DNA of 64,000 bases from Algicola sp. (GTDB lineage: Bacteria; Bacteroidota; Bacteroidia; Flavobacteriales; Flavobacteriaceae): the NCBI GenBank assembly GCA_018222915.1, contig JAAEZI010000002.1, positions 1 to 64,000 on the forward strand, given 5' to 3'. Made by a program: the position numbers and the translations under genes. The notes under the pieces are model-generated. The model saw only the letters and a list, made by a program, of their open reading frames with translations. It was not told the origin of the DNA and did no database searches. This document shows positions 19,414 through 21,466 of the stretch, piece by piece (the stretch's first letter is position 1; each line of letters starts with the position of its first letter).

Positions 19414-20271
19414 ATGATACAGTCAATGACAGGTTATGGGAAATCCGTAATTCAACTTCCAACCAAAAAAATTTCAATTGAGATCAAATCACTCAATAGT
19501 AAAAACCTCGATCTTAATACACGCATGCCTTCGTTATATCGCGAAAAAGAGCTAGAGATTCGAAAACTTATTGCTTCTAAATTGGTTAGAGGAAAAGTAG
19601 ATTTCTCGTTGTATATGGAAATTACAGGTGAAGAAACCTCGACTCAAATCAACAAGACTGTGGTGATGCAGTATATGAAACAGCTTAAGGAAGTTGCAAA
19701 CGGTGAGGATACAGAGTTATTAAAAATGGCGATTAGATTACCTGATGCCGTAACGACAGAACGCGATGATATTGATGAAGATGAATGGAAAGCAATCGCC
19801 AAAACTATTGATGATAGCTTAACGAAAATACAACAGTATCGCCTTGATGAAGGTTAAAGTTTGGAAACAGACTTTCAAGACCGCGTTCATAATATCGCAA
19901 CACTTCTAGATCAAGTGATCGCTATGGATCCTGAACGCATTGATGGTGTTAGGGAACGATTAACAAAAGGCATAGCAGACATCAAAGAAAAAGTAGATGA
20001 AAATCGCTTTGAACAGGAACTGGTATATTACATTGAAAAGTTTGATATTACGGAAGAAAAAGTACGATTGAAAAACCATTTGGACTATTTTATAAAAGCC
20101 TTGCAATCTGAAGATTCCAACGGAAAAAAACTAGGTTTTATTTCTCAGGAAATGGGACGTGAAATTAATACCATCGGTTCCAAGTCGAATTATGCGCCTA
20201 TGCAGAAACTAGTCGTCCAAATGAAAGATGAGCTCGAAAAAATTAAGGAACAATTATTGAATGTGCTTTAA
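19414..20271 (+). pseudogene. yicC: YicC/YloC endoribonuclease interrupted by an in-frame stop
   Basis: The reading frame starts at the ATG at 19414 (MIQSMTGYGKS, the hallmark N-terminus) and runs to 20271, 286 codons, the normal length of the family. A single TAA at 19855-19857 (codon 148) breaks it after the sequence LDEG. The same frame then continues SLETDFQDR with the conserved C-terminal half (KVDENRFEQELVYYIEKFDI and QEMGREINTIGSK). There is no frameshift. CAA to TAA is the simplest origin. YicC proteins are metal-dependent endoribonucleases whose C-terminal domain is conserved. A TTG at 19861 could restart translation of a 136-residue fragment. It could also be a sequencing error or suppressed stop. 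It precedes gmk and nadD. Confidence 0.8.
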
Positions 20272-20293: not shown

Positions 20294-20884
20294 GTGGCAG
20301 AAATAAAAAATAAAAAAAGAGGTAAATTGATTGTGTTCTCGGCACCTTCAGGTTCAGGTAAGACAACGATTGTGAGACATTTGTTAAAACAAGAAGAGTT
20401 GAACCTGGAATTTTCAATTTCAGCAACCTCAAGAGAAAAACGCGGACAAGAAGTCAATGGGAAAGATTATTACTTTCTAGACATTGCGGACTTCAAAAAC
20501 AGGATTCGCAACGATGAGTTTTTAGAATGGGAAGAAGTCTACAGAGATAATTTCTATGGCACTTTAAAAACTGAAATCGAACGCATTTGGGCGAAAGGTA
20601 AAAATGTGATATTTGATATTGATGTTTCGGGAGGTCTGCGAATCAAACGTAAATTTCCTGAGGAAACCTTAGCTATTTTTGTGAAACCACCCGATTTAAA
20701 TGAACTTATAAAACGACTGAAAAGACGAGGTGAGGAAAGTGAAGACAAAATTAGCATGCGTGTCGCAAAAGCACCAGCTGAACTGGCTACAGCACCTTTA
20801 TTTGATGTCATTGTCGTGAATAAGGACTTAGAAGATGCTTTGGAAAAATCGTATCAACTCGTCTCTGATTTTATTAAGAAATAG
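20294..20884 (+). CDS. gmk: Guanylate kinase
   Basis: A 196-residue enzyme that phosphorylates GMP to GDP with ATP. The P-loop APSGSGKTT lies at residues 17-25, followed by the GMP-binding SATSREKRGQEVNGKDYYF region and the lid. The start is a GTG at 20294, as no ATG or TTG exists between it and the P-loop strand. It lies 22 bp after yicC and 3 bp before nadD, in a conserved cluster. Confidence 0.95.
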   Translation: MAEIKNKKRGKLIVFSAPSGSGKTTIVRHLLKQEELNLEFSISATSREKRGQEVNGKDYYFLDIADFKNRIRNDEFLEWEEVYRDNFYGTLKTEIERIWAKGKNVIFDIDVSGGLRIKRKFPEETLAIFVKPPDLNELIKRLKRRGEESEDKISMRVAKAPAELATAPLFDVIVVNKDLEDALEKSYQLVSDFIKK

Positions 20885-20887
20885 GTT

Positions 20888-21466
20888 ATGAATATTGGTC
20901 TGTACTTTGGAACCTTCAACCCCATTCATGTTGGACATTTGACCATAGCCAATCATATGGCGGAATACAGTGACTTAGAAAAAATTTGGTTCGTCGTCAC
21001 ACCGCAAAGCCCATTTAAAAAGAAAAGCTCTTTACTTGATAATCGGCAGCGTTATGAAATGGTCTATCGCGCAACAGCAGATTACCCTAAATTAGAACCT
21101 AGTGATATTGAATTTAATTTACAACAGCCCAATTATACCATACACACCTTGACATATCTTCAGGAGAAATATCCTGAGCATCAGTTTTCATTGATCATGG
21201 GCGAGGATAATTTAAAGAGTTTTCACAAGTGGAAAAACTACGAGCTGATTTTAGAACAGCATCACATTTATGTATATCCTAGAATTTCTGAAGGTCACAT
21301 TGAAACCCAATTCAATAATCACAAAAAGGTGCATTTTGTAAATGCACCTATTATGGAATTATCTTCTACGTTCATCCGAAACGCCATTAAACATGGTAAA
21401 AATGTGAGACCTATGCTTCCAGAGCACGTCTGGTCTTATTTGGATGAAATGAATTTTTATAAATAG
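20888..21466 (+). CDS. nadD: Nicotinate-nucleotide adenylyltransferase
   Basis: A 192-residue NadD that adenylates nicotinic acid mononucleotide to deamido-NAD. It shows the nucleotidyltransferase GTFNPIHVGH motif (residues 8-17) with its HxGH signature, and an LSSTFIRNAI motif (the family's ISST-IR element) near residue 158. Its start follows the gmk stop by 3 bp. Its 3' end nearly abuts a convergent lipoprotein gene (stops 3 bp apart). Confidence 0.95.
   Translation: MNIGLYFGTFNPIHVGHLTIANHMAEYSDLEKIWFVVTPQSPFKKKSSLLDNRQRYEMVYRATADYPKLEPSDIEFNLQQPNYTIHTLTYLQEKYPEHQFSLIMGEDNLKSFHKWKNYELILEQHHIYVYPRISEGHIETQFNNHKKVHFVNAPIMELSSTFIRNAIKHGKNVRPMLPEHVWSYLDEMNFYK

Follow-up and report, generated by a model that had tools for sequence, protein, structure and literature searches.

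The yicC locus and its in-frame stop codon

The window, the whole stretch of DNA that we analysed, comprises the first 64,000 nucleotides of contig JAAEZI010000002.1 of an Algicola sp. assembly and carries an interrupted yicC frame followed by gmk and a nadD-like gene (Table 1). The yicC frame runs from the ATG at 19414 to a final TAA at 20269–20271, with its 286 codons and unchanged length. Frame reading bore out the preliminary description, in which a single TAA had been noted in a full-length yicC frame without length change, with intact gmk and nadD downstream. The two sides of the stop are also conserved, as had been stated: PF03755 is recognized in the N-terminal half with 131.5 bits (cut-off of 25), and PF08340 in the C-terminal half, 3' of the stop, with 134.9 bits (cut-off of 27). 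The TIGR00255 cut-off of 167.5 bits is passed only when the stop is read as X (186.4 bits), and by neither of the open frames (66.6 and 111.2 bits). The gene is single-copy in the assembly, with no second intact copy. In its two-domain frame, its single copy, and the gmk and nadD genes that follow, the locus resembles other members of the YicC/YloC family (RNase CS; TIGR00255, PF03755 plus PF08340). The catalytic glutamates of the family are likewise present, though 3' of the stop. In contrast to the uninterrupted frame of the family, the window's frame falls into halves that each score below the TIGR00255 cut-off.

Table 1. Coordinates of the features at the interrupted yicC gene and its downstream neighbours
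Feature	Coordinates	Strand	Evidence or remark
yicC (YicC/YloC family endoribonuclease) frame, interrupted	19414..20271	+	TIGR00255, 186.4 bits with X at the stop; cut-off 167.5
In-frame TAA, codon 148 of 286	19855..19857	+	42 of 106 distinct relatives have AAA at this codon
N-terminal part, 147 residues, PF03755	19414..19857	+	TIGR00255 alone 66.6 bits, below cut-off
C-terminal part with catalytic glutamates, PF08340	19861..20271	+	TIGR00255 alone 111.2 bits, below cut-off
First in-frame ATG 3' of the stop, residue 171, at PF08340 edge	19924..19926	+	Possible, unproven restart
Hairpin of 8 pairs with four-base loop, starting within the TAA	19856..19875	+	-7.0 kcal/mol
gmk (guanylate kinase), intact	20294..20884	+	Domain and frame reading
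nadD-like nucleotidyltransferase, intact	20888..21466	+	Domain and frame reading

Codon 148 and the state of yicC among relatives

Comparison of codon 148 across relatives, as proposed in the preliminary description, revealed an internal stop in none of 109 related yicC loci, which comprise 29 from a genome collection and 80 from named records and represent 106 distinct sequences. The named relatives are Flavobacteriaceae, including Mangrovimonas, Psychroserpens, Gelidibacter, and Winogradskyella; identity over the C-terminal part of yicC reaches 85–88% in the best named-record rows, in a comparison from which the window's own genome and its nearest neighbours may have been excluded. Each species is represented by a single genome in the collection, so that the comparison is between species. 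A search of 57 genomes, the window's own included, gave yicC matches in 55, with an internal stop listed for the window's genome only and for none of the 54 others that matched. Among 397 genomes of the family, 387 gave a yicC match, and among the matches listed the stop occurs only in the window's own genome. A second search of eight genomes whose matches were weak, partial, or double yielded 12 matches, all free of stops. On these sequences, the yicC stop is private to the window's genome among the relatives examined. An ordinary pseudogene made by a point mutation would look similar, as its gene is dispensable, its stop is private, and its neighbours are intact; the case here bears no second lesion and is so young that sequence comparison alone does not separate it from a base error.

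The rest of yicC is undamaged, with no decay beyond the stop. In the alignment of the 106 distinct relatives, 84 columns are invariant (31 before codon 148 and 53 after it), and not one of them is changed in the window, which indicates that the stop is either very young or not real; the lack of a second lesion is equally compatible with a base error and with a young mutation. Against the 13 of 29 relatives listed, both halves of yicC show nonsynonymous divergence (dN) similar to the values for gmk and nadD. Synonymous sites are saturated or close to saturation in comparison with these 13 relatives, which defeated dating of the stop by dN/dS.

Position 148 accepts 10 kinds of amino acid among the 106 distinct relatives, of which Lys (54), Ala (12), Gln (11), Glu (11), and Ser (6) are the most frequent. 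In the 29 genome-collection loci the codon is AAA in 14, AAG in 4, CAA in 4, and GAA in 3, with four others occurring once each. The TAA is one base away from each of AAA, GAA, and CAA. The most similar protein (L003) has AAA at this position, and its neighbouring codons GGT and AGT also match those of the window. In a tree of yicC, gmk, and nadD with 29 relatives, the window lies on a long branch with weak support for its sister (0.248), and AAA is thus the commonest codon of the relatives rather than an established parent. The C to T change of a Gln codon (CAA) that had been favoured earlier stands as a possible single step, though less likely than a change from AAA and hence not the likeliest one (Lys in 54 of 106 relatives, with AAA in 42, versus Gln in 11).

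Predicted consequences for YicC and its dispensability

In a report on Escherichia coli YicC (PMC10793500), the enzyme is a hexamer that closes on RNA, and its activity was abolished by alanine at E216, E217, E252, E281, R30, R251, or R280, as well as by replacement of M5, N28, or F244 with alanine, while the E148A enzyme remained active; residues of both halves are needed according to the same report. Alignment and hand counting place the stop at Q150 of the E. coli protein. Hand mapping indicated that E. coli E216, E217, E252, and E281 correspond to E214, E215, E250, and E279 of the window's yicC, all after the stop, as are R249 (E. coli R251) and K278 (E. coli R280). Arg30 also aligns with a lysine, and thus the RNA-binding R30 and R280 of E. 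coli YicC both contrast with lysines here. Since the catalytic glutamates all lie 3' of the stop, the product of 147 residues would be without the catalytic set and presumably without ribonuclease activity. A C-terminal fragment, if made, would be without the N-terminal RNA-binding part.

No yicC match was found in 10 of the 397 family genomes, and among the 329 genomes with a completeness of 90% or more and a contamination of 5% or less, 5 were unmatched. The unmatched genomes include both members shown of genus g206, which have 1.2-Mb genomes that are 95 and 92% complete. As described in two studies (PMC10715208, PMC11510482), E. coli yicC has been removed deliberately, and a deletion of 103 nt within it arose in evolving lines; the effect may come via the adjoining rph-pyrE region, as one of them has it (PMC10715208). 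YicC is apparently dispensable. If real, the stop would be one more sign of this dispensability in Flavobacteriaceae. Its import beyond annotation is small, in that a gene caller would give two short proteins or a pseudogene.

Origin of the stop codon

The assembly is a draft of 94 contigs, 95.0% complete and 5.42% contaminated, with N runs. For the survey of interrupted genes, 864 kb of the genome (window included) was compared with ORFs from 1.2 Mb of genome G006 and 480 kb of genome G010, at an identity of at least 60% and a coverage of at least 70%, with the stop more than about 40 residues from the start and more than about 30 from the end; stops near frame ends were dropped by this distance filter. 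Internal stops were found in 3 of 262 distinct genes, namely the TAA of yicC, a TGA, and another TAA. The TGA, at base 76602 of contig C51 (L174), interrupts a conserved frame some 1138 residues long, about 250 nt before an N run of 232 bases. The second TAA, at C27:26074, is in a weakly conserved gene (local identity of 0.55) that is also frame-split, and one further gene of contig C27 is split at an N run. In the control, the ORFs of the window's genome were searched against the single-contig genome G006, and the 261 comparisons yielded four stops and one frame-split, all uncurated. The rate of interrupted genes is thus about 1% in both, which gives no sign of recoding or of decay of the genome and makes a very poor assembly unlikely. 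Within the window, apparent stops against G010 at r74 and r78 are upstream of the likely real starts, and those at r34, r37, r40, r48, and r71 were taken, by position alone, as chance frames overlapping real genes. Between 27359 and 32647, the window contains five consecutive ORFs of at least 120 residues that are unmatched in the compared G010 stretch and are flanked by matching parts.

We consider that the stop probably reflects a recent nonsense mutation with loss of yicC function. A single-base change in this strain's otherwise normal yicC would have produced the TAA very recently, and translation would stop after 147 residues, keeping the N-terminal domain and losing the whole C-terminal domain. 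The ribonuclease, deprived of its catalytic glutamates, would be inactive, and the cell would tolerate the loss because YicC is dispensable. We infer a real base, an inactive fragment, and a small fitness cost. The similar low rate of interrupted genes in the single-contig control counts for this explanation; the absence of any interruption in three of four control comparisons (47, 61, and 62 genes) counts against it. Overall, the yicC stop is an ordinary thing. Inverted repeats can be sites of short-read errors, and one begins at the yicC stop. A consensus base error, or the base of a minor strain in the draft, would leave the organism's own yicC intact, and we regard this as a real possibility, clearly less probable than the mutation. 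The N runs and estimated contamination of the draft, the undamaged remainder of the gene, and the nearness of the TGA on C51 to an N run are consistent with such an error. However, the window itself is free of N, the first N run lying at 65029 in the 184 kb of the contig that was examined, and 28 other window genes that match G010 (two at below 45% identity) have no stop in the gene proper. In addition, the sole frame change away from an N run among the 262 genes compared is that of the weakly conserved C27 gene, and interruptions are as many in the control genome. Of the options offered in the preliminary description, recent loss of function and sequencing error both stand, while a suppressed stop is not supported: no tRNA with a TTA anticodon was found among the loci and pattern matches read in this assembly, which is about 95% complete, and the stop is unshared by the relatives examined.

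Such suppression would require that translation continue past a real stop, owing to a suppressor tRNA or to the context of the stop with the hairpin directly after it, so that full-length YicC is made. It would agree with the tolerance of residue 148, with the conservation of the sequence after the stop, and with the TAA in one other interrupted gene, which is itself weakly conserved and frame-split. The stability of the hairpin is reached by 5 of the 831 24-mers of the gene and, at the aligned place, by 1 of 109 related loci, and the 121-nt stretch has a z of -1.94. The hairpin is the only feature favouring read-through, and it is weak. None of the 28 distinct tRNAs that ARAGORN reads has a TTA anticodon, the genome's clearest other internal stop is a TGA, and the lack of the stop in the relatives examined gives no indication of conserved recoding. 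We regard read-through to full-length YicC as very improbable. A variant in which a real TAA is bypassed at a useful rate with the help of the hairpin, yielding the N-terminal domain for the most part and full-length RNase in small amounts, is slightly more doubtful still; if true, it would act as a strain-level dimmer on YicC. Comparably improbable is a split enzyme, in which the C-terminal domain restarts at ATG 19924 or at the conjectural start codon TTG 19861 and pairs with the N-terminal fragment. The short gap between the two open yicC frames and the position of ATG 19924 at the edge of PF08340 would suit this arrangement. However, yicC is in two pieces in none of the 109 related loci, and E. 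coli YicC depends on residues of both halves, as reported in PMC10793500. The position of TTG 19861 is Leu in 105 of the 106 distinct relatives and that of ATG 19924 is Met (ATG) in 68, which indicates that both serve as ordinary codons in the intact gene and that neither arose as a new start. Partial yicC copies in seven further family genomes lie at contig ends or no more than about 20 bases from them; these odd matches, searched again together with genome G032, proved to be stop-free pieces that begin or end at or near contig ends (four confirmed), and the second match in G032 is a weak stretch inside a frame of 953 residues. The earlier proposal of a split enzyme started from TTG 19861 therefore finds no parallel in the related loci or in these partial copies. 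The recent nonsense mutation remains the explanation that we prefer.

The genome lists at least 30 tRNA family matches, and Trp, Tyr, and Ile, for example, are not among the matches listed. ARAGORN reading of 30 tRNA loci, in an assembly about 95% complete, found no TTA anticodon, and its scan of the whole 864 kb gave two tRNAs, neither with TTA. Pattern searches were also performed: the first pattern type was too restrictive for short gaps and detected 9 of 28 known tRNAs, and the widened type detected 27 of 28 (gaps of 13–40 in the test; 13–36 in the two genome searches together). TTA tRNA-like patterns occurred at 71 and 13 places, compared with 78 and 12 in the backward controls, and ARAGORN found no TTA tRNA at 18 of the 71 and all 13 of the latter, in a genome of which about 5% may be missing. 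Two tRNA-like candidates were rejected. One, at the end of contig C69 (L140), is a tRNA-Lys cut at its 5' side by the contig end, with the anticodon TTT by eye. The other, at C27:73903, is a 3' tRNA part that resembles tRNA-Met by eye and is reported as a gene by neither ARAGORN nor Rfam. This lone 3' part (C27:73903–73940, L161) is perhaps an attachment-site copy left by an integrated element.
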